This document shows, in pieces, positions 17,791 through 33,801 of a stretch of DNA of 41,826 nt; position 1 is the stretch's first letter; each line of letters begins with the position of its first letter. A program made the position numbers and the translations under genes. This DNA is from Bacteroidales bacterium. Lineage in GTDB: Bacteria > Bacteroidota > Bacteroidia > Bacteroidales > Tenuifilaceae. Under the pieces are notes generated by a model. That model saw nothing but the letters and a program-made list of their open reading frames with translations, had not been told where the DNA came from and searched no databases. The stretch spans positions 1-41,826 of the forward strand of contig JACABB010000032.1 of NCBI GenBank assembly GCA_013376985.1. The letters are read 5' to 3'.

Positions 17791-18102
17791 CAAGTTATGC
17801 CGCTATAGGATATCTTAATATGCTGAGCCTGTCTAAATATCAATCAATTTAATTGAATCAATGGAATAATGGAAGATACAAGCAAAAATCTAACCTGTCC
17901 TCCATCATTCCAGCCTTCCATCTCGATACTAAATAATTATATGTCTCTACAATTAAACACATTATTACATTTCTTATACCGAACTGACGTTATAATCCCA
18001 AACCAAAGGTGTCTTATTCTACCTAAAAAACCATTTTCTGTTCCAAATTACTTTTATTTGTGTGAATTTGTATACTTTAGTAAAGAATATTTTACAACAT
18101 TG

Positions 18103-19281
18103 ATGAAACGCAATCTATATGCTCTAGCAATTGTTCTACTAATTGCTAATCCCATTTATGCGCAGAAAGAAAAAATTTTGGTTGGTGCAGAACAAACGAG
18201 TTTGTACATTCCTCTAATCAACCACAAAAAGATTGCAGTGGTGGCAAATCACTCCTCATCTATAGGAAAAGTTTATTTAGTTGATAGTTTAATATCCTTA
18301 AAAATTAAAATAAAAAAGATTTTTTGCCCCGAACATGGTTTTCGAGGAGAGGGTGATGCAGGGGAATACATCAGGAACTACACCGATAAAAAAACTGGCT
18401 TACCAGTTATATCGCTTTACGGAAGCCATAAAAAACCATTAGCCAAAGATTTAAAGGGAATTGAGGTTGTAATATTTGATATGCAGGATGTTGGGGTTCG
18501 TTTTTATACTTATATTTCTACAATGCATTATGTAATGGAGGCTTGCGCCGAACAGAGCATCACCGTAATTATCCTTGATAGACCAAATCCTAACGGATTT
18601 TATATTGATGGCCCAATCCTCGATACCACCTACCGTTCCTTTGTTGGACTTCACCCTGTTCCTCTTGTACACGGAATGACCATTGGTGAATACGCTCAAA
18701 TGATTAATGGCGAGAAGTGGCTTAAAAACGGGATTCAATGCAAAGTAGTAGTTATTCCGTGCAAAAACTATAATCATAAAATGATGTACTCCCTTCCAAT
18801 ACGACCATCTCCAAATCTACCAAACCAAACATCAGTTTTACTATACCCATCGCTTGGTTTTTTTGAGGGAACATGCATAAGCGTTGGGAGAGGAACCGAT
18901 TTTCCTTTTCAAATTTTTGGACATCCCTCCCTTCCCAATACTGGGTTTTCTTATATTCCAGTTGAAAAAATTGGAGCTAGCAAGAATCCCCCATTTAAAA
19001 ACGAAAAGTGTAATGGGTTCGATTTGCGTGAATACTCAGTAAAGTACTTTAAAGATAATCCAAGAATTAATCTTGATTGGCTTCTTTTTGCATACAAGAT
19101 GTTTAAAGATAAGAAATCATTCTTCAATAACTTTTTTGTTAACCTTTCGGGAACACCTGAACTAAAGAAACAGATTGAGCAAGGACTCGATGCTGAAACA
19201 ATTAGTAAAAGTTGGGCAAAACCTCTTATTGCATTCAAAAAGGTTAGAAAGAAATACCTTTTATATCCCGATTTTGAGTAA
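18103..19281 (+). CDS. namZ: DUF1343 family exo-beta-N-acetylmuramidase (NamZ-like, GH171)
   Basis: A 392-aa exported protein. The start at 18103 gives a good signal peptide (MKRNLYALAIVLLIANPIYAQ); the frame is open back to 17869, but that part reads non-coding DNA. The DUF1343 signatures are clear: VVANHSSSIG, FCPEHGFRGEGDAGE, SLYGSHKKP, VVIFDMQDVGVRFYTYISTM, ILDRPNPNGFYIDGP and EGTCISVGRGTDFPFQIFG. The characterised member NamZ releases terminal MurNAc from peptidoglycan fragments, so a role in cell-wall recycling is likely. RNase HI follows after 22 bp. Confidence 0.9.
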   Translation: MKRNLYALAIVLLIANPIYAQKEKILVGAEQTSLYIPLINHKKIAVVANHSSSIGKVYLVDSLISLKIKIKKIFCPEHGFRGEGDAGEYIRNYTDKKTGLPVISLYGSHKKPLAKDLKGIEVVIFDMQDVGVRFYTYISTMHYVMEACAEQSITVIILDRPNPNGFYIDGPILDTTYRSFVGLHPVPLVHGMTIGEYAQMINGEKWLKNGIQCKVVVIPCKNYNHKMMYSLPIRPSPNLPNQTSVLLYPSLGFFEGTCISVGRGTDFPFQIFGHPSLPNTGFSYIPVEKIGASKNPPFKNEKCNGFDLREYSVKYFKDNPRINLDWLLFAYKMFKDKKSFFNNFFVNLSGTPELKKQIEQGLDAETISKSWAKPLIAFKKVRKKYLLYPDFE

Positions 19282-22079: not shown

Positions 22080-22527
22080 AGTCAATAGTTTATCACAAAA
22101 TACTTCGAGTCAAATTTATGAAAATTAAGTAATTATGTATTTTTTATCAAATAATATTTCAATGAATTAACAATTAGTTGATAATTTGTTTTTTGTCTTC
22201 CGTTTCACATTTTGGAATCATCGGAAACAAAGCTAATTTAGGGCTGCCATTTTAAGGGCATTTTTACAGGATTTACTTTGTATTCAGCATATAACTTTTG
22301 TGCCACAGACATTAGTATTTTAGGGCACGATAAGCTAGATATTGAATCATAAGATTAAAAGTTTACTATAGTTTATTTCTTTAATTTTGTTGATTTCGCT
22401 GAATCCATATGGTTTCATTAGATCTGAATAATAACTAAAATTTATACGCGTGAAACATCCATGATATTAGCCTTAACGCACAAGATAATGACTACTATGG
22501 ATGTTCCATCTGCACCTTAAAAAACAA
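22080..22527. other. Divergent intergenic region before gatE
   Basis: No gene was recognised. An AT-rich stretch is followed by TAATTTTG (22382-22389), a possible -7 box for gatE, and then by a 61-nt repeated element at 22452-22512. No T-box or known riboswitch was recognised. Confidence 0.5.
22452..22512 (+). repeat. 61-nt element, copy A (potential structured RNA or mini-ORF)
   Basis: It begins GAAACATCC and ends ATGGATGTTCCATCTG. It aligns without gaps over 61 nt to 34106-34166, strongly at both ends. AACATCC (22454-22460) can pair with GGATGTT (22499-22505). In the other copy this stem is AATGTCC/GGACATT, so two base pairs change in a compensatory way. The right end also reads as a mini-ORF, ATG GAT GTT CCA TCT GCA CCT TAA (22497-22520). 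Confidence 0.5.
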
Positions 22528-24540
22528 ATGAATAGACAGATGAAAAAAGGTTCAACCCCAACTAAGAAGTTCGATCCACATAAGAACTACCAAACCACAA
22601 TGAAATCTATCGGCTACGTAGTTCGTAAGAAAGCTACAGTAGAAGATTATCAGCGGATAGGCTTCAAATCAGGCCTTGAGGTACATCAACAACTTAAAAC
22701 AAAAAAGAAACTCTTCTGTCGCTGCCCTGCAGGCATTTTTCACGATAGTAACGACTATCATGCAGAACTTATACGCCATATGCGTCCAACTCTAAGCGAG
22801 ATGGGTGAATATGATGGAACGGCACTAATGGAATTCAAGACTCGCAAGGAGATTACTTATCGTATTCATAACCAAACAACCTGCACGTACGAAATTGATG
22901 ATACCCCACCATTTCCAGTTAACCGTGAGGCATTAGAAATCGCATTAGAAATCTCACTACTTAGCAAACTCAATATTGTTGGCGAGGTGCATATCACCCG
23001 TAAACAATACCTTGATGGTTCAATTCCAACAGGATTTCAACGTACAGCCATTTTAGGAGTTGAGGGTGCAATTCAACTCAAAAACAAAAAGGTTGGTCTA
23101 ATTCAACTAAGTATCGAAGAAGATTCTTGTAGAGAGATATCCGATATTGGTCATCAGCGTATCTATAAAACCGATAGGTTGGGAATGCCACTTATCGAAA
23201 CTGTAACTCACCCTCATTGCCTTACCCCCGATGAACTTCGCGAAGCAGGCGAATACATTCGCTTCCTAAATCGCAGTACTGGTAAGGTTCGTACTGGAAT
23301 GGGAGCAGCCAGACAGGATACAAACGTAAGCTGTGAAGGGGGTACAAGGGTTGAAATTAAAGGTGTTTCACATCTAAAATGGATACCAGAATTATCGCAC
23401 AACGAGTGCTTCCGTCAGTGGGCATTGCTGAATATTCGCAAACTACTACTCGATAAAGTAAAAACGCCTGCCAATTGGAAGTTAAGACATATAGAGGTTG
23501 ATCCACGTGACATTGGACTAGAATACCAATCCGCAATCAACTATGCAGATGTTGGATATAAAGTCTATGCTATTTGCTTACCAGAGTTTAAAGGCATCCT
23601 ATCACATTTTACGCAACCTGGAAAGAGTTTTACCAATGAGCTGAGCGATAGGTTAAAAGTTATTGCAGGGATAGAAAAACCGAACATAACTAGCACTGAG
23701 GACTTAGTTGCGCCTTTGAATGCAAAAGATTTCAATACGCTCTCAATTCCACTAAAAGCAACAGAGGATGATGCAATTATCCTAATTTGGGGACCTGCGG
23801 ATGATATGAAAACTGCATTGGAAACGATACAGGAACGTTGTATGATGGCATTTGAAGGAGTTCCCAGAGAAACCCGCAGACCATTAGAGGATGGAACAAC
23901 ACTATTTGAAAGGGTTTTACCGGGTGCTGATCGTATGTATCCTGATACCGACTCTGCTCCTATTCCACTGGAAGAAAGCTATATCGACATGCTTAAAACG
24001 CGTATCCAAATGGATATTGCCGATAGGTATAAGCAGATGAAAGATTGGAAGATCCCTTCTGATACCTACACATATCTCCTAAAGAAAAACCTTGTTCCTG
24101 TCATTGAACAACTAGTTAAATTAGGTGTTTCAGGTCGATTTGCAGGCACTTTCTTAGGTCATCAGCTAAAATTTGTTGAAGGAAAGATCGAAAAACACAA
24201 CGACTTTACTTATAACCGAATCATCGAGATGTTTGAGTTTCTTAATAAACAAAAACTACAACCGTCCATCGCTAAGATGATGCTTCCAATTATCTATCAA
24301 CACCCCAATATGGATTTCAATTCAGTACTTACTAGCTTAAACTTTAAACGACGTACAAAGGATGATCTTTTGGCTCCGGTTGATTACTTACTTGAGAAAT
24401 TTCGTGAGATTAGAGTTTCAAAAAGCAGTTCACCTGATGTAGCCTTAAACTGGGCTATGGGTCAACTTAACCGTCAAGCTTTAGGGAATGTTGATCTAAA
24501 GGATTTAAAGAAGAGCATCGAGAAAAAGCTTGTTAAGTAG
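22528..24540 (+). CDS. gatE: Glu-tRNA(Gln) amidotransferase subunit E (archaeal type)
   Basis: A protein of about 670 aa that matches GatE, the tRNA-binding and transamidase subunit of the archaeal GatDE enzyme that converts Glu-tRNA(Gln) to Gln-tRNA(Gln). The GatB/GatE cradle begins at GFKSGLEVHQQLKTKKKLFCRCP and continues with EYDGTALMEFKTRKEI, IDDTPPFPVN, RKQYLDGSIPTGFQRT and RTGMGAARQDTNVS. The GatE-specific AspRS-like insertion is visible (ILIWGPADDMKTAL, GVPRETRRPLEDGTTLFERV, LPGADRMYPDTDSAPI). The C-terminal helical/YqeY-like tail runs to the end (SSSPDVALNWAMGQLNRQALGNV). The length fits archaeal GatE plus ~35 extra N-terminal residues. The start is uncertain: ATG at 22528, 22540 or 22600. 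gatD follows after 30 bp. Confidence 0.9.
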   Translation: MNRQMKKGSTPTKKFDPHKNYQTTMKSIGYVVRKKATVEDYQRIGFKSGLEVHQQLKTKKKLFCRCPAGIFHDSNDYHAELIRHMRPTLSEMGEYDGTALMEFKTRKEITYRIHNQTTCTYEIDDTPPFPVNREALEIALEISLLSKLNIVGEVHITRKQYLDGSIPTGFQRTAILGVEGAIQLKNKKVGLIQLSIEEDSCREISDIGHQRIYKTDRLGMPLIETVTHPHCLTPDELREAGEYIRFLNRSTGKVRTGMGAARQDTNVSCEGGTRVEIKGVSHLKWIPELSHNECFRQWALLNIRKLLLDKVKTPANWKLRHIEVDPRDIGLEYQSAINYADVGYKVYAICLPEFKGILSHFTQPGKSFTNELSDRLKVIAGIEKPNITSTEDLVAPLNAKDFNTLSIPLKATEDDAIILIWGPADDMKTALETIQERCMMAFEGVPRETRRPLEDGTTLFERVLPGADRMYPDTDSAPIPLEESYIDMLKTRIQMDIADRYKQMKDWKIPSDTYTYLLKKNLVPVIEQLVKLGVSGRFAGTFLGHQLKFVEGKIEKHNDFTYNRIIEMFEFLNKQKLQPSIAKMMLPIIYQHPNMDFNSVLTSLNFKRRTKDDLLAPVDYLLEKFREIRVSKSSSPDVALNWAMGQLNRQALGNVDLKDLKKSIEKKLVK

Positions 24541-24570
24541 ATATAGTCATAATTAGAAATATTAGACACA

Positions 24571-25953
24571 ATGGAAGATATTTTTCAAGGTTATAAAGGC
24601 AAAGCGCTTGAGGTGCTTAAAAAATATAATGTTCGTGTTTGGGGTAAAGCGGTTATCGATACTACTCGTGGTGAATTTAAAGGAACTGTCCTTCCCCGTG
24701 CTGAGAACGACGACGATAAGCATATCGTACTAAAGATTGAGACTGGGTATAACATTGGTATCGATATCGTTACAATTAAGGGAATGAAAGAGATGGGTTA
24801 CTTTAAAGCCACCTATAAGATTCCTGAAAAAGAGTTTCCAGTTACTCCAAACTTACCTAAAGTTAAACTTTTAGGAACTGGCGGTACAATCGCATCACGC
24901 CTTGATTATAGAACAGGTGCTGTTATCCCTGCATTCTCTCCTGGAGAACTTTATGGAGCAGTTCCTGAACTTGCAGATATCTGCAACCTGACAACCGAGA
25001 AACTTTTCGCTGTATTCAGCGAGAATATGGGTCCTGAGCAGTACAAGGCATTGGCAATTGCTATTGGAAAAGAGATTGAAAACGGTATTGATGGTATTAT
25101 TATTGGACATGGAACAGATACCCTAAGCCATACCGCAGCAGCACTTACCTTCATGGTGCAAAATTCACCTGTTCCAATTGTACTAGTTGGTTCACAACGT
25201 AGCTCCGACCGACCAAGTAGCGATGCCGCTTTAAACCTAATGCATGCAACAACCGCAGCGGGTCATTCAGACATTGCAGAGGTTATGGTTTGCATGTTTG
25301 GACCAACTTCGGATGAATACGGATTTTTGCATCGAGGAACACGTGTACGTAAGATGCACTCCTCTTATCGTAGTACATTCCGTACCATTAGCGATACTCC
25401 CCTTGCAACGGTTAGCCGTAGCGGCGTAAAACCGATAAAAGAGGATTACAACCATCGCCGTAAGGATAGAAAGGTTAAGATTCTTCCATACTTTGAGGAG
25501 AAAGTAACGATTGTTTACTACTACCCAAATATGCAGCCCGATATTATTGATGCACTGGTTGACAATGGCTATAAAGGGATTATAATTGCTGGTACTGGGC
25601 TTGGGCATATTAACAAACCACTTTACCCTGCAATAGAGCGAGCATATAAGAAAGGTGTACATATTTACATGACAGTTCAAACCCTTTGGGGATTTGTTCA
25701 CATGTATGTATATGATACAGGTCGCGATTTGATGGCTAAAGGGATTATTCCTGCTGAAAACATGCTTCCCGAAACTGCTTATATCAAACTGGGTTGGGCA
25801 CTAGGTCAAACCAACGATCGTGAGGAGGTAAAGCGGTTAATGCTTACCCCAATTAACGATGAAATTACCCCAAGGGAGCCATATAATGGATATTTGATTT
25901 ACCAAGGCGGCGTTCCAGAGGTGGAATCGTTTATTAGGAGATTTAGGAAGTAA
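24571..25953 (+). CDS. gatD: Glu-tRNA(Gln) amidotransferase subunit D (archaeal type)
   Basis: A 460-aa glutaminase subunit that supplies ammonia to GatE. The N-terminal ~90 residues form the GatD-specific small beta domain (VRVWGKAVIDTTRGEFKGTVLP, DIVTIKGMKEMGYF), which is absent from ordinary asparaginases. The L-asparaginase-like domain follows: LGTGGTIASRLDYRTGAV with T103, HGTDTLSHTAAAL with T182 and D183, and RKMHSSYRSTFRT with K261. Spacing and identity match the catalytic Thr/Thr/Asp/Lys set of archaeal GatD. It sits 30 bp after gatE with no terminator between, so the subunits are co-expressed; a terminator follows. An ordinary type I asparaginase is ruled out by the N-terminal domain and the gatE neighbour. 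Confidence 0.93.
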   Translation: MEDIFQGYKGKALEVLKKYNVRVWGKAVIDTTRGEFKGTVLPRAENDDDKHIVLKIETGYNIGIDIVTIKGMKEMGYFKATYKIPEKEFPVTPNLPKVKLLGTGGTIASRLDYRTGAVIPAFSPGELYGAVPELADICNLTTEKLFAVFSENMGPEQYKALAIAIGKEIENGIDGIIIGHGTDTLSHTAAALTFMVQNSPVPIVLVGSQRSSDRPSSDAALNLMHATTAAGHSDIAEVMVCMFGPTSDEYGFLHRGTRVRKMHSSYRSTFRTISDTPLATVSRSGVKPIKEDYNHRRKDRKVKILPYFEEKVTIVYYYPNMQPDIIDALVDNGYKGIIIAGTGLGHINKPLYPAIERAYKKGVHIYMTVQTLWGFVHMYVYDTGRDLMAKGIIPAENMLPETAYIKLGWALGQTNDREEVKRLMLTPINDEITPREPYNGYLIYQGGVPEVESFIRRFRK

Positions 25954-26581: not shown

Positions 26582-26627
26582 AATAACAAGAGGGTGTCTC
26601 GGACTTTTGAGACACCCTCTTGTTATT
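26582..26627. terminator. Strong bidirectional terminator hairpin
   Basis: Perfect 19-bp stem, 26582-26600 (AATAACAAGAGGGTGTCTC) with 26609-26627, and an 8-nt loop. On the minus strand it begins at the stop codon of the C_GCAxxG gene and closes that operon. Confidence 0.85.
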
Positions 26628-27078
26628 ATATTTCCTTGTTGTTTTCAAATATCCCATCAAGTATCTCAGCGGATGTTTTAATGGCATTTGTGCAAACTTT
26701 ATCGAACAGGTTGTTGCTAATGGCATGGTCGATGCCTTCCTGTGTGCTAATGTCAACATTTAGCAATTTATTACAAACGGTTGAGCCGCATTTACTTTCA
26801 AAAGTTGTCAAATATTCTTTGGTAAGTTTATACAACTGCTCTTTTGACAGTTCCTCGCTTGGGTTTGAATGACCATACTTTAAACCAATTGCCATTACAG
26901 CACCTGACACTGCTCCGCAAACCTCACCTTTGAATGCTATTCCCGCTTCGAATCCTGCTGCAAGCCTTGCAGAATCCTCGGGGTTTTTAAAGTATTCTTT
27001 ACCAAATGGCATTAGTATTGATTGAGCACAACTATTTCCACTCTTAAAAAGTGATAATGATTCGTCCACCTTTTTCAT
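26626..27078 (-). CDS. C_GCAxxG_C_C family protein (probable redox/metal-binding)
   Basis: A 150-aa protein of the C_GCAxxG_C_C family (named after its Cys pattern). Seen: NSCAQSIL near residue 17, KGEVCGAVSGAVMAIGL (the CGA..GA core) near residues 51-67, CGSTVCNKLLNVDI near residues 95-108, and VCTNAIKTSAEIL near the C-terminus. The family is thought to bind metal or act in redox reactions; its function is not settled. It has no signal peptide. It is the last gene of the minus-strand operon (24-bp gap from the radical SAM gene), and its stop codon touches the terminator stem. Confidence 0.88.
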   Translation of the reverse strand: MKKVDESLSLFKSGNSCAQSILMPFGKEYFKNPEDSARLAAGFEAGIAFKGEVCGAVSGAVMAIGLKYGHSNPSEELSKEQLYKLTKEYLTTFESKCGSTVCNKLLNVDISTQEGIDHAISNNLFDKVCTNAIKTSAEILDGIFENNKEI

Positions 27079-27102
27079 AATATTTTATGGATTAATTATT
27101 AA

Positions 27103-28026
27103 TTAATTTTCTGGATAGTAGCCTGCTTCTGCTAGCATTTGCCACGCCATTGTTGGTGAAAATCCACGACCCTCTTTTGTATCTGAATGAGTATCTCTAG
27201 GGTTTGCACCAACTTCAGCGTATAGCTGATTTACACCTGCTAATAAACTCATCTGGGTTGGTTCGTGAACATTCATCGAACGGGATGGCTTAATTACTAG
27301 ATTAGTCACCGCCACAATTTTGGTCAGCTCCATAGCATTTATCTGACCATTGCTGAATAATGGAGTTCCAGGAACTGGAATTCTGCGCATGACAGCCATT
27401 GCATCTATCGGGAATTGCTTTGAAAAATAAATTAAATCTAAAATTTCATCATAGCTATGCTCTGGGCCAACAGGTTCTATGCAATAGTAAAGCTCAAGCC
27501 CTGCATTTAGAATATTCTCAATGGTTTTTTCCCGTATTTCTGGTTTTATCAAAGTATCAATACCCTCTCTGAAACGCTTGATATGGTAAGCTCCAGTAAT
27601 TCCAATCGCTTTGAACTCTTTAGCGGTTTCAAGGTCGAAATCTCCGATATTCGCAACAAAACGAACACTATCAGGCAAGTGCTTTCTCACTTTTGCTGAA
27701 ATCTCTATGAATTTTTTTATCGGATAATCGGCAGTTGTCATCAGAAAGAAGTCATTCATTCCTTCTTTTAGTAGAGATTGTACTCCTGTGATTATTTCAT
27801 CTGCGCCTATCTGCCATTTTCCTTCCACCGAATAGTGGGATGAACCCAAAGAACAAAATCCGCAGTTCTTAGAACAAGGTTCAGCATTCATACCAATTTG
27901 AGCAAAAACAAATCCTTTACTGCCGAATTGTTTTCTGCTTTGTTGATTAGAACGACTAATAAGTTTATAGAAATCGTCAGATGTTGTATCCGTCTTAAGT
28001 AAGTTTAAAGCTTCTTCTCTTTGCAT
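27103..28026 (-). CDS. BioB-like radical SAM protein
   Basis: A 307-aa radical SAM enzyme. The cluster motif CSKNCGFC has ligands C51, C55 and C58 (CX3CX2C). The barrel then shows FFLMTTADYPIKKFIEIS, RFVANIGDFDLE, GITGAYHIKRFREG, YYCIEPVGPEHSYDEI and AVMRRIPVPGTPLF. The C-terminal BATS-like region (NVHEPTQMSLLAGVNQLYAEVGANPRDT) is related to biotin synthase and to HmdB/PylB-like proteins. Typical BioB length and neighbours are missing, so biotin synthesis is unlikely. It sits between the G3E GTPase (41 bp upstream) and C_GCAxxG genes. It probably makes or alters a cofactor handled by that operon; the substrate is unknown. Confidence 0.87.
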   Translation of the reverse strand: MQREEALNLLKTDTTSDDFYKLISRSNQQSRKQFGSKGFVFAQIGMNAEPCSKNCGFCSLGSSHYSVEGKWQIGADEIITGVQSLLKEGMNDFFLMTTADYPIKKFIEISAKVRKHLPDSVRFVANIGDFDLETAKEFKAIGITGAYHIKRFREGIDTLIKPEIREKTIENILNAGLELYYCIEPVGPEHSYDEILDLIYFSKQFPIDAMAVMRRIPVPGTPLFSNGQINAMELTKIVAVTNLVIKPSRSMNVHEPTQMSLLAGVNQLYAEVGANPRDTHSDTKEGRGFSPTMAWQMLAEAGYYPEN

Positions 28027-28067
28027 AGTATTTAAGATTTAATAGAAATTATTAGGAGCAATATGTT

Positions 28068-29150
28068 TTAAACTAATCGATGGGTTGGGTTCGGAAATCC
28101 TGGCTGAAAGTACGAAAGATGCTTTTCATAAATCGTTACCCCATTTTGTGATTTTAACTGGTTCAGCAAATCGATGAATATTTTTCGTAGCACATCGGGT
28201 GTGGTTTGTATTCGGGCATTAACGAGTAGGTCAACCGTATTCGTTTTTTCAAGTTTCAAAGAGTTGGGAGTATCTTTCTCTAAAATGGTCGTATAACTCA
28301 GTTTATGAAATTGACCATTGAATGAGAGAAAGAATTTCAGATGTCCAATGGGTAGGTTTTTAGCCGTTACCTCAGCTGTTAACTTTTTAATGAACTCAAA
28401 AACGAGTTCAACCGATGAACCATTCGTAGAGGTTATTTCAATCTCCTCATCAAGCCAAGCAAGGTTAGCTTCACCAGCACCATACTTGTTATAGTCAACA
28501 TCTATCGATTTGTGCTCTTTTAAGCTTTGAACTTTGCTGATATTCTCAACCCAATTACTCACGGAATCGCTATTGAGTGAGTTTTGGAAGAGCAATTGCT
28601 TGAAGGGGAAAGTATCTTTAGCCATTTTCTTTAGCTTTGCAAACTCATCTGGTGTTAGCAAGTCCACCTTATTGACTATTAAAATTTCAGCCTCCTCAAT
28701 CTGCTTTTCCCAGATGTAGTTTGTCTCCATGCTAAACGGTAATGTATTACCCAGTAAATGCATGAGTAGAAGCTGTGAATCAACAAAACTTGAAAACGTA
28801 ACCTGTTCAATATCCGATTCTCTGTATTTCAGCAAGGGTTTTAATACCGTTGCAATCAGGTCTGTGCAAGAGCCAACCGTTTCAGCGAAGATTACCGATG
28901 GGTTGAAGTTCTCCTTTAGCGTGTTGATTTGAGAATCGAGCTGGTTATAGTTACAGCAGAAACAACCTCCTGTAACCTCGGTAAATGGAATGTTGGATTG
29001 TTGAATGAACCGACTATCGACAAGGTAATCCCCTTGGTCGTTTGTAATCACTGATGTTTTTTCATTCTTGTCGGTTAATAATTTACTGGCATTCGCAATG
29101 GCAGTGGTTTTTCCGCTACCCAAGAAACCTCCTACTAAGTGTATTTTCAT
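28068..29150 (-). CDS. COG0523 G3E-family GTPase (CobW-like metallochaperone)
   Basis: A 360-aa SIMIBI-class GTPase. The P-loop GGFLGSGKTT is at residues 7-16, the metal-binding signature GGCFCCNY is near residues 61-68 (CXCC), and the NKVD base-specificity motif is in EILIVNKVDLL. The C-terminal CobW-like domain contains LPIGHLKFFLSFNGQFHKLSY. Characterised relatives insert or deliver Zn, Co, Ni or Fe to client proteins. The client here could be one of the two operon neighbours downstream. It lies 46 bp after the arsR-like gene. Confidence 0.9.
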   Translation of the reverse strand: MKIHLVGGFLGSGKTTAIANASKLLTDKNEKTSVITNDQGDYLVDSRFIQQSNIPFTEVTGGCFCCNYNQLDSQINTLKENFNPSVIFAETVGSCTDLIATVLKPLLKYRESDIEQVTFSSFVDSQLLLMHLLGNTLPFSMETNYIWEKQIEEAEILIVNKVDLLTPDEFAKLKKMAKDTFPFKQLLFQNSLNSDSVSNWVENISKVQSLKEHKSIDVDYNKYGAGEANLAWLDEEIEITSTNGSSVELVFEFIKKLTAEVTAKNLPIGHLKFFLSFNGQFHKLSYTTILEKDTPNSLKLEKTNTVDLLVNARIQTTPDVLRKIFIDLLNQLKSQNGVTIYEKHLSYFQPGFPNPTHRLV

Positions 29151-30165: not shown

Positions 30166-33100
30166 ATGAAAAAAATCTTTACTTCATGTCTTATTGTTAT
30201 GCTTTATTTTTCTGCTATAGCACAGCAAACAAATTGGCAGTACTTAGGGCAACAAAAAAAAGCGACGGCTGGATTTGAACTAGTCAAATCAAGTCAGTCA
30301 GAAATCGTTGTAAAATTCTCCCAAAGCGCCTATGGTTTACAAAGTGTAAATACAGCCAAAGGCAACGCTTTTGTTGTTTTATCCTACAAAGGAGCGCAAA
30401 TTCAAAAGAAGGGTGCTCCTGATTTAGGTAAGAATACTCAATCGGTCATTGTTCCTGACAGGGATGCTATGGCAATTGAGGTTGTTAACTCAAAATTCAC
30501 TGAGGTGGATAATATTGATATTGCCCCATCAAAAGGTGTAATATCTAGGAGTATAAATCCTAATGACATCCCCTACGAATATGGTATTGAGTATCAAACA
30601 AACGCTTTCTTCCCAGGTGATATTGCAACTCTAGGTGATCCTTACATTATTAGAGATTTCCGTGGCCAGACAATTATTATGCAGCCATATCAATACAATC
30701 CAGTTACAAAGAAACTACGCATTTATAGTGAAATTACCGTTAAAGTTATTTCCACTGGAAAAGAAGGTAAAAATACATTGATTAGACAAAAAGCTTTGAC
30801 CCAATTAGATTCTGGTTTTGAATCAATTTACTCTAACCATTTCTTAAACTTTACTGCAAGCAAGTATACTCCCCTAAGCGAAGCTAGCAAAAAGATGCTT
30901 ATTATTTGCTACGATAGCTACGCAAGCGCAGTACAACCACTTGTTACATGGAAAAACTCAATTGGTTTCACAACTACATTGGTTAACTACTCAACAATTG
31001 GCAGCGCGGCTGCTCTTAAAACATACGTACAGAACTTCTACAACACCAACGGGTTAACATATCTGCTAATAGTTGGTGATAATGCACAAGTTCCAACCTC
31101 AAGTACTTCAGCAGGTGATTCAGATAATAACTATGGTTATACTGTTGGCACCGATCATTACCTAGATATTTTTGTTGGTCGTTTCTCTGCCGAAAGCGCA
31201 GCACAAGTTACAACACAGGTAAATAAAACTTTATACTATGAAAGAGATATGCTATCAACCGCAACTAACCTTACAAAAGGTGTAGGAATTGCATCAAATG
31301 AAGGTGGTAGCGGTGGCGATAACGGCGAGAGCGATGAGCAACACATGAATAATATTAAAACCGATTTAACCAACTATGGTTATACAATTACAGATTGCTA
31401 TCAGAATGGTGGTTCAGCATCGCAACTCACAAGCTTAATTAATACAGGAACTGGCATCATTAACTATGTTGGTCATGGCAGCGAAACTAGTTGGGCCTCG
31501 ATGGTTTACACCAGTACAGATGTTGCAGCGTTAACCAACACCAATAAATACCCATTTATTATCTCTGTAGCTTGCGTTGTTGGTAACTTCAAATCAACTA
31601 CATGCTTTGCCGAAACTTGGCTACGTAGCACAGATGCAAGCAGTAACCCTGTTGGTGCTATCGCATTCTGCGGATCAACAATCAACCAATCATGGGCATC
31701 ACCAATGTTAGCTCAGGATGAAATGAATGATCTATTAATTGCAAACTCATATAAATCATATGGAGGAATGTTTGTAAATGGTATGTTCAAAATGATTGAT
31801 GGTTATGGTACAGACGGTGAAAATATGGCTGATACATGGACTGTATTCGGTGATCCATCATTATACACAAGAACACCTGGACATCTAAATGGCCCAACAG
31901 CTAGTAGCGACACTCAGGCTCCAACCGCTCCAACCAATTTGGCATCTTCAAATGTAGCCCAAACAACTTTAACTCTATCTTGGACAGCATCAACCGATAA
32001 CGTAGGTGTTACAGGATATGATGTTTATAAAAATGGCTCATTCTTAGCAACCTCAACCACTACAACTTACAATGTTACTGGTTTAACAGCAGGTACAAGC
32101 TATTCTTTCTATGTTAAAGCTAAAGATGCCGCAGGAAATGCTTCTGCTGCTAGCAATACAGTAAACGTTACAACTCTTAATCCAACTTCATTAACACTTC
32201 CTGTTACTGAAAACTTTGCAGCCTCAACATTACCAACAGGTTGGACAACCCAAAATACTGGAACAGGTGTAACTGAGCGTTGGAGTATGTCAAATACAGC
32301 AAATGCTGGTGGTGCTGCTTATGAGTTGATGTGTACTTACCAACAGGTTAATCCAGTAACAACTAGGATAATTACTCCTCCAGTTAATACAGTTGGTGTT
32401 AGTTCAGTTACCTTCTCATTTAAGCACATGTTAAATGCTTATGCTGCTGGAGTTACTTTGAGTTTACAAACTTCAAATGATAAATCAACTTGGACAAATA
32501 CAAGCTGGTCTGTTGCTACAACAGCAACTGATATTGCTGCAACTACCGTTAGCGTACCTGTAACAACCAATCTCAATTCAAATACAACCTATTTTGCTCT
32601 AGTAGCTACAGGTGACTTGTATCAGATTGACTACTGGTATGTTGATAATATTTCAATTACTACAGGAGGTTCAACCACAATCCCAACCGTTACAACTACT
32701 GCGGCATCAAGCATAACCTCAAGTTCTGCAACAAGTGGTGGTAATGTAACTGCCGATGGTGGTGCTACAGTTACCGAAAGGGGTATATGCTATGCAACCA
32801 CAGCTAACCCAACAACTGCAAATAGTAAAGTTACAAGTGGTACTGGAACAGGAACATTTACCGCAAATATGACTGGTCTGGCTGCCAATACTCTTTACTA
32901 TGTAAGAGCATATGCAATCAATTCAAACGGAACTGCTTACGGTACACAAGTATCTTTCACAACACTAACTGGAGGCGGTGGATCAACAGTTATAATTGGT
33001 ACTGGGACTGCAACACAGGGTTACCCACTTAGCTGCTACTATGGCTATGAGAGAAGTGCATCACTTTACACCGTAGCTGAAGTTGGTGCAGCAGGTATAA

Positions 33101-33801
33101 TCAATAAAGTTGAGTGGTATCCAACATTAACCACAACTTATAGCGTTCCTGTAAAGATTTACATTAAGTCAACAACCGCTACTACTATTACTGCTTCAAC
33201 ATGGGCAACAGCAATTTCAGGTGCTACATTAGTTTATAATGGAACTATGGCTGGAACAACTGCTAATACATGGATAGCATTCAGTCTATCTACAACATTT
33301 AGCTATACTGCTGGTTCAAATAACATATTGGTTCTTGTTGAGACTAATTATGGTACAACTGGCGCTGGTGCAAGTACTGGTCCAGCTTGTCAGTACACAT
33401 CTGCAACTAGCAAGCACATGTATATCAGAGCTGATAATACAGCACCAACAGGTACTGCAACTGTTTCAAGTTATCGCCCAAATATTAGACTCACATTCGC
33501 AAACAGAGGAGTAACTCCTCAAGTCAACGAGACTAGAGATATTACCAGTATTTCTGGAATTAGTGTATACCCAAATCCTACTGAAGGTGAATTTAAACTT
33601 CAAATTAATTCCGAGTACACAGGAGCAGTTCAAGTTACAATATATAACACTATTGGACAGATAATTAAAACCGTACCATTCAATAAATCAAACGTAAATG
33701 AAGAGAGACAAATAAGTCTAGCAAATCTACCTGCTGGTATTTACGTTGTTAACGTTAAAATGAATGGTGAAACTATGAATAGCCGAATTGTTCTGAAATA
33801 G
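30166..33801 (+). CDS. Gingipain-like C25 cysteine peptidase with Fn3 domains and T9SS sorting domain
   Basis: A 1211-aa secreted protease. The signal peptide is MKKIFTSCLIVMLYFSAIAQ. A propeptide-like N-terminal domain (residues ~20-230) precedes the C25 catalytic domain (KKMLIICYDSY, YLLIVGDNAQVP, DIFVGRFSAES). The catalytic pair is H437 in NYVGHGSE and C470 in SVACVVGNF, 33 residues apart as in RgpB. Next are a fibronectin III domain (TLTLSWTASTDNVGVTGYDVYKNG, ~595-670), a MAM/cleaved-adhesin-like domain (~685-830), a second Fn3-like domain (ATVTERGICYATTANP), a further beta domain, and a type A type IX sorting domain (ISVYPNPTEGEFKLQI...GIYVVNVKMNGETMNSRIVLK). It would be exported across the outer membrane and attached or released. 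It is monocistronic with a terminator. Confidence 0.93.
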   Translation: MKKIFTSCLIVMLYFSAIAQQTNWQYLGQQKKATAGFELVKSSQSEIVVKFSQSAYGLQSVNTAKGNAFVVLSYKGAQIQKKGAPDLGKNTQSVIVPDRDAMAIEVVNSKFTEVDNIDIAPSKGVISRSINPNDIPYEYGIEYQTNAFFPGDIATLGDPYIIRDFRGQTIIMQPYQYNPVTKKLRIYSEITVKVISTGKEGKNTLIRQKALTQLDSGFESIYSNHFLNFTASKYTPLSEASKKMLIICYDSYASAVQPLVTWKNSIGFTTTLVNYSTIGSAAALKTYVQNFYNTNGLTYLLIVGDNAQVPTSSTSAGDSDNNYGYTVGTDHYLDIFVGRFSAESAAQVTTQVNKTLYYERDMLSTATNLTKGVGIASNEGGSGGDNGESDEQHMNNIKTDLTNYGYTITDCYQNGGSASQLTSLINTGTGIINYVGHGSETSWASMVYTSTDVAALTNTNKYPFIISVACVVGNFKSTTCFAETWLRSTDASSNPVGAIAFCGSTINQSWASPMLAQDEMNDLLIANSYKSYGGMFVNGMFKMIDGYGTDGENMADTWTVFGDPSLYTRTPGHLNGPTASSDTQAPTAPTNLASSNVAQTTLTLSWTASTDNVGVTGYDVYKNGSFLATSTTTTYNVTGLTAGTSYSFYVKAKDAAGNASAASNTVNVTTLNPTSLTLPVTENFAASTLPTGWTTQNTGTGVTERWSMSNTANAGGAAYELMCTYQQVNPVTTRIITPPVNTVGVSSVTFSFKHMLNAYAAGVTLSLQTSNDKSTWTNTSWSVATTATDIAATTVSVPVTTNLNSNTTYFALVATGDLYQIDYWYVDNISITTGGSTTIPTVTTTAASSITSSSATSGGNVTADGGATVTERGICYATTANPTTANSKVTSGTGTGTFTANMTGLAANTLYYVRAYAINSNGTAYGTQVSFTTLTGGGGSTVIIGTGTATQGYPLSCYYGYERSASLYTVAEVGAAGIINKVEWYPTLTTTYSVPVKIYIKSTTATTITASTWATAISGATLVYNGTMAGTTANTWIAFSLSTTFSYTAGSNNILVLVETNYGTTGAGASTGPACQYTSATSKHMYIRADNTAPTGTATVSSYRPNIRLTFANRGVTPQVNETRDITSISGISVYPNPTEGEFKLQINSEYTGAVQVTIYNTIGQIIKTVPFNKSNVNEERQISLANLPAGIYVVNVKMNGETMNSRIVLK

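Follow-up and report, generated by a model that had tools for sequence, protein, structure and literature searches.

A bacterial-clade GatDE gene pair alongside GlnRS in a Bacteroidales genome

The gatE and gatD genes

The window analyzed here, a 41,826-nt stretch of DNA from a Bacteroidales bacterium (contig JACABB010000032.1), carries adjacent genes for GatE and GatD, the two subunits of the GatDE glutamyl-tRNA(Gln) amidotransferase. They belong to a bacterial clade of the enzyme whose hosts mostly also encode GlnRS. The features of the pair are:

22501..24540, + strand: gatE, Glu-tRNA(Gln) amidotransferase kinase/transamidase subunit (NF003107, TIGR00134; Foldseek; residues)
22669..23985, + strand: GatE cradle (catalytic) domain, split by an aspartyl-tRNA synthetase (AspRS)-like insertion (PF02934, 156.8 bits, amino acids 57-495)
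23554..23817, + strand: AspRS-like (GAD) insertion, weak (PF02938, 21.8 bits against a cut-off of 23.4, amino acids 352-439)
24199..24531, + strand: GatE C-terminal helical/tail (YqeY-type) region, which in archaeal GatE binds the tRNA elbow, strongly diverged (PF02637, 27.0 bits, at the cut-off of 27, amino acids 567-677)
24571..25953, + strand: gatD, asparaginase-like ammonia-producing subunit (NF003217, TIGR02153; T106, T182, D183, K261)
24667..24774, + strand: GatD N-terminal beta domain (PF18195, 45.2 bits against a cut-off of 25.7, amino acids 33-68)

Both products, of 679 amino acids for GatE and 460 for GatD, exceed the curated NCBIfam equivalog cut-offs set for the archaeal enzyme. 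In particular, GatE scores 476.5 bits against NF003107 (cut-off 456) and 408.2 bits against TIGR00134 (319.55), and GatD scores 502.8 bits against NF003217 (310) and 499.7 bits against TIGR02153 (324). The GatB cut-offs are not reached by the window GatE (126.3 bits against 338, and 121.1 against 314.8). The first-pass annotation, made from the letters of the window, had named adjacent gatE and gatD genes with an AspRS-like insertion in GatE and an extra N-terminal beta domain in GatD. The adjacency holds, as two neighboring same-strand open reading frames separated by 30 bases, and so does the beta domain; the insertion is present, but as a weak match below its cut-off. The gatE start given there, 22528, is an in-frame ATG and a possible alternative start, but a longer open reading frame begins upstream of it at 22501.

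Sequence comparison confirms the pair as genuine GatDE family genes. For both subunits, the closest solved structures by sequence are the archaeal GatDEs of M. thermautotrophicus (2d6f) and P. abyssi (1zq1), with which the pair shares both subunits, the domain plan, the catalytic residues and the GatE fold. A predicted GatE model (mean predicted local distance difference test score of 81.6, 67 of 670 residues below 50, tail region predicted helical) had 1zq1_C and 2d6f as its best Foldseek matches, with template-modeling scores of 0.73-0.77 by target and 0.56-0.60 by query, and a root-mean-square deviation of 6.6-6.7. In comparison with the bacterial GatCAB, GatE is homologous to GatB and the same type of reaction is expected, but GatD is asparaginase-like rather than a GatA amidase, and GatE falls far below the GatB cut-offs.

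The window GatD residues T106, T182, D183 and K261 align with T101, T177, D178 and K254 of M. thermautotrophicus GatD, which we take to be its catalytic residues, and they are identical in all 117 bacterial GatDs of at least 400 amino acids. The initial assignment of T103, T182, D183 and K261 to the archaeal catalytic positions therefore stands for the last three; T103 is an earlier threonine of the GTGGT motif that also holds T106, the aligned catalytic threonine. The GatE positions aligned with archaeal E13, H15, E157 and E184, by number and role presumably the metal- and ATP-site residues, carry identical residues in the window and the two archaeal rows, and in no fewer than 99% of bacterial rows. 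Moreover, the ratio of nonsynonymous to synonymous substitution rates (dN/dS) was 0.003-0.077 in 18 of 22 comparisons of GatE and GatD pairs, with several of the dS values above 1 and therefore rough; three GatE pairs were saturated and one GatD pair gave no value. These ratios indicate that purifying selection maintains gatDE.

The conservation is uneven across GatE. In the Bacteroidales type, the N-terminal cradle shares 62% identity with the other large bacterial group and 40% with archaea, whereas the helical and tail domains, across which the alignment is uncertain, share 13-18% with other groups and 40-42% within the type (13-14% and 40% for the tail alone). These diverged domains distinguish the enzyme from archaeal GatDE, as do 24 of 597 compared columns that are fixed differently, with two archaeal rows compared. 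In the portions available of PMC4810234, the tail domains of GatDE and GatCAB are described as fitting the small D-loop of tRNA-Gln. A conserved cradle joined to a diverged helical/tail region could reflect a changed substrate, for example a tRNA-Gln class poorly charged by GlnRS, or another Glu-tRNA. Such a change is considered unlikely; members of the other large bacterial group themselves share only 25% identity in the tail, and a diverged tail does not have to imply a different substrate.

Distribution and descent of bacterial GatDE

With the window's own genome counted in both sets, GatE scores above its cut-off in 29 of the 60 genomes taken from the genus, family and order and in 31 of the 392 in the phylum sample. 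Within the family of the window, 9 of 27 genomes, one of them only 63% complete, yielded no GatE. A scan of a genome collection yielded at least 576 confirmed relatives, the best 80 of which all carry bacterial labels: Bacteroidales and other Bacteroidota, Ignavibacteria, Kapaibacterium, Chlorobiota, Planctomycetota, Cloacimonetes, Krumholzibacteriota, Aminicenantes, Calditrichota and one Archangium metagenome-assembled genome (MAG). The scan bait was mixed and scored slightly nearer to bacteria than to archaea, so the list of the best 80 is no proof that bacterial copies outnumber archaeal ones. MAGs, which may be mislabeled, make up most of the records; four are named strains, namely Marinifilum flexuosum, two Labilibaculum and Perlabentimonas gracilis (G022), the last belonging to the window's own family, Tenuifilaceae according to NCBI.

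The gatD gene follows gatE in 56 of 58 loci and, in a second set, in 72 of 80 loci. The eight loci without GatD include five where GatE ends at the locus end or within 80 bases of it, and three with room for a GatD that is not there. A conserved neighbor was sought as a functional hint across 81 loci and none emerged besides GatD, as every other gene family turns up in 8 of them at most (antisense and overlapping frames, judged by position, were set aside). The constancy of GatD and the lack of any other recurring neighbor mark gatDE as a self-contained module.

Carriage on phages or plasmids was also considered and rejected. A pattern-limited search gave 18 matches in viral contigs, none of them confirmed. 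GatE matched four plasmid records: one carries a haloarchaeal GatE, and the other three matches are partial, two of them to genes annotated as gatB and one to an unannotated stretch. For GatD, 185 plasmid records matched, all below 60% identity, and their best rows include asparaginases. An unannotated haloarchaeal GatE from a plasmid record of Natrinema (L272, 2890-4853) is apparently split over two frames.

A quick tree of 133 of 140 GatE rows (four duplicates and three short rows dropped) parts 131 bacterial sequences from two archaeal ones by a long branch with a support of 100. Within the window's family, GatE follows the genera, and the GatEs labeled Aminicenantes, Calditrichota and Archangium nest among other groups. 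A second tree, rooted on seven GatB rows from which the GatEs separate with a support of 100/100, places 46 hand-picked bacterial GatEs in one clade (ultrafast bootstrap 96, Shimodaira-Hasegawa-like approximate likelihood ratio test 94) beside three archaeal GatEs, one of them a fragment; the window GatE is neither nested in nor grouped with the archaeal sequences. This tree leaves out the divergent L102 (genome G404), a GatE with 33% identity to the window and a branch of 1.58, whose genome has GlnRS and no GatB over cut-off. In an earlier GatB-rooted tree that held L102 and one wrong GatB row, the bacterial GatEs did not form one group, and forced monophyly was not rejected (p 0.29); the GatB row and L102 changed at once between the two trees, and L102 is unplaced.

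The first-pass annotation had proposed either a transfer from archaea or an overlooked bacterial lineage of the enzyme. A recent and direct archaeal transfer into this host is not supported, given the genus-wise descent of GatE and the single bacterial clade. The overlooked lineage is what emerges, from the spread across genus, family, order, phylum and other phyla and from the enzyme's own clade in the tree. An ancient transfer at the base of the bacterial clade, from an unsampled archaeal group, is possible, as the archaeal side of the tree consists of just three sequences, including one fragment.

The patchy presence of GatE, also within the window's family, and the nested Aminicenantes, Calditrichota and Archangium sequences would fit a view of GatDE as redundant with GlnRS, either a relic or a spare spread by lateral transfer, that persists through chance and repeated re-acquisition and serves no particular purpose. 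Such a view is improbable: dN/dS is very low in the pairs with a value, the catalytic residues are conserved, descent in the window's family goes genus by genus, and the mobile-element searches, pattern-limited for viral contigs, confirmed no viral copy and found no bacterial GatE among the four matched plasmid records.

Coexistence with GlnRS and the host tRNA-Gln genes

How this host makes Gln-tRNA(Gln) was a question raised at the outset. Its genome (99.16% complete) encodes one GlnRS, in which the HIGH and MSKR motifs are intact, and one GluRS, and has no GatB; its tRNAs include tRNA-Gln(UUG) and tRNA-Gln(CUG), the CUG gene adjoining glnS. The plain first answer, as read from these genes, would be the host's own GlnRS, which ligates glutamine to the tRNA in one step with no mischarged intermediate and gives the same product, Gln-tRNA(Gln), as expected of the GatDE in the same genome.

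This coexistence is common among the genomes checked. Among 80 GatE-bearing genomes (79 distinct), hand-chosen from 113 to favor isolates and other phyla, 72 have GlnRS over cut-off, 36 have GatB, and 31 combine GatDE, GlnRS and GatB; three of the 80 (G026, G035 and G059) were chosen because no GlnRS had been found in them. In the order set, GlnRS is found in 26 of 29 GatE-bearing genomes, and a hand count over both sets gives 96 of 104 distinct GatE-bearing genomes with GlnRS over the curated cut-off. As the host has GlnRS and no GatB, and 72 of the 80 genomes have GlnRS, most Gln-tRNA in this host is unlikely to come from GatDE. Archaea differ in this respect, as they are said to lack GlnRS in the available portions of the literature.

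Five of the eight GatE-bearing genomes without GlnRS have GatB, and three (G059, G026 and G490) have neither. These few assemblies would fit GatDE as the main route, with the GlnRS genes inactive or accessory, but all three are weak exceptions. G026 is only 78% complete; G490 is a 1.4-Mb MAG, and G489, near it in the GatE tree, has GlnRS; G059, at 96% completeness, was tried as a sole-route genome and set aside, as both other genomes of its family (congeners) have GlnRS. With GlnRS in the great majority of hosts and both motifs kept in the window's own, a main route through GatDE is highly improbable. Further, with no clear sole-route genome, sequence by itself is no proof of GatDE activity.

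Whether the GluRS of this host is non-discriminating had also been raised as a question. The residue at position 358 of Thermus GluRS, which we take to be a discrimination site, was tried as a sign of this and rejected; it is Arg in 21 of 21 aligned GluRSs, including that of G372, a genome without GlnRS, and is thus not diagnostic.

There is a partial precedent for an amidotransferase retained despite synthetases, in the Bdellovibrio-type bacteria that have GlnRS, AsnRS and GatCAB, according to the portions available of PMC4206432. In contrast to the present case, that amidotransferase is GatCAB and its proposed product is Asn-tRNA, whereas archaeal GatDE is described for Gln.

The first base pair of tRNA-Gln is a further difference from archaea, whose GatDE is reported to read A1:U72. 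The tRNA-Gln genes recovered from bacterial hosts have U1 in 67 of 67 and A72 in 66 of 67, and never A1:U72. The only one without A72 is an odd tRNA-Gln-like gene (L266; G052:C11, 30-105), where U1 stands opposite U72.

Two tRNA-Gln classes occur, one of about 71 nt with a D-loop such as AATGGTA, and one of 73 nt with AATTGGCA. Both of these structurally distinct classes are found in one genome (G000:C1:88880-88952 and C29:24793-24863), the CUG gene adjoining glnS. The 73-nt class was called at 88 bits or more with model R2, an author-chosen limit on scores running from 104 to 73 with no clean gap; the model was built from 11 genomes, 9 of them GatE-bearing, and scoring took 12 candidates per genome under strict filters. 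By hand count, the class is present in 27 of 31 GatE-bearing and 45 of 361 GatE-lacking genomes of the phylum sample. Within families it is still tied to GatE (Cochran-Mantel-Haenszel p 3e-5, with hand-entered strata and phylogeny not corrected for; G020, with no tRNA-Gln found, and family f75, with one GatE-bearing genome without the class, were left out). At the genus level, the class is present in 7 of 7 with GatE and 3 of 10 without in family f51 (p 0.01), and the tie vanishes in the window's family (5 of 6 genera with GatE, 3 of 3 without, hand count). In family f69, all eight GatE-lacking genomes carry the class, which is thus partly a clade mark, and GatE-bearing genomes without it include Marinifilum flexuosum (G471), G022 and G056. 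The association, overall and within families, would suit a changed substrate; the f69 genomes, the GatE-bearing genomes without the class, and a model drawn mostly from GatE-bearing genomes with no clean score gap at 88 bits all speak against one. The link between the 73-nt class and GatE is a lead, in part a clade mark.

Other features were noted in passing. On a 6.4-kb contig (L065; G000:C66), four near-identical tRNA-Cys(GCA) genes (1685, 2586, 4269 and 4782, + strand) lie one by one between the genes of a polyketide-like cluster with tandem acyl carrier proteins, a ketosynthase, a metallo-beta-lactamase fold, an FMN reductase and a sulfotransferase. In the window, a 20-pair inverted repeat between gatD and a convergent gene (26582-26627) is perhaps a terminator, such sites being no commoner than in shuffled sequences. 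At 26626-29150 (- strand), a C-GCAxxG-C-C protein (over cut-off), a BioB-like radical SAM protein and a CobW-like GTPase (both under cut-offs) stand in a row, perhaps as one cofactor operon. A C25 peptidase with a propeptide and a secretion-system C-terminal sorting domain, presumably of the gingipain family, lies at 30166-33801, and a NamZ-type exo-beta-N-acetylmuramidase at 17869-19281.

A probable second route and its significance

GatDE is probably a working Glu-tRNA(Gln) amidotransferase of a bacterial clade, a second route beside GlnRS with a repair or specialized role. The sequences show the gene identity, the catalytic residues, purifying selection, GlnRS coexistence and the divergence of the tRNA-elbow domain; what the enzyme catalyzes, on which substrate, and whether it repairs or is specialized are inferred. 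With GlnRS already in the host, GatDE would be the second route, and a kept chemistry together with a changed tRNA-elbow module points to a corrective or specialized one. In the proposed mechanism, GatD would release ammonia from glutamine or asparagine through its Thr-Thr-Asp-Lys center, and GatE would use ATP to phosphorylate the glutamate carried by Glu-tRNA(Gln) and turn it into glutamine. GatDE would thereby clear or convert Glu-tRNA(Gln) made by GluRS, or serve a subset of tRNA-Gln, rather than provide the bulk supply of Gln-tRNA.

Several observations weigh against this second route. GatDE presence is patchy, and lineages can live without it; no genome beyond doubt relies on GatDE alone; the A1:U72 pair is absent from the tRNA-Gln genes; and the GatE tail domain has diverged, so that the substrate may differ.

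A bolder version, put forward tentatively and with less confidence, is a third glutamine-tRNA system, where a GatDE with a rebuilt elbow module would correct Glu-tRNA(Gln) beside GlnRS or charge the separate 73-nt tRNA-Gln class. A survey of bacterial GluRS and GlnRS (PMC3927822, in the portions available) used gatCAB alone and took its absence as a defunct indirect pathway; its main text contains no whole-word gatD or gatE. If the third system were real, that rule would fail for the GatDE-bearing Bacteroidales.

Three reviews from 2021-2022 (PMC8762117, PMC9499178 and PMC8007984), in their available portions, place GatDE solely in archaea, two stating archaea only and one only archaea missing AsnRS; PMC8762117 calls it an archaeal signature. 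Bacterial GatDE is unmentioned in the portions available of these three and of PMC4206432, PMC13047044, PMC9976931, PMC4810234, PMC8001834 and PMC7373986, and no paper on it was recognized by title or abstract in the literature searched, subscription papers and database notes lying outside that search. The NCBI models would assign the names GatD and GatE to these genes, which may thus already carry the annotation without having been discussed. The family is thus known, but its bacterial clade is overlooked by the reviews, as far as their available text extends, and its hosts already fill the known role.

A broad and strongly constrained bacterial clade beside GlnRS breaks the archaea-only rule and bears on the presence of GatDE in the last universal common ancestor. 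Surveys that rely on gatCAB alone to infer what GluRS and GlnRS do can overlook a route. The role of GatDE in bacteria is a testable question, since most hosts checked also own GlnRS, and the named strains of Marinifilum, Labilibaculum and Perlabentimonas let one ask why two Gln-tRNA routes persist.

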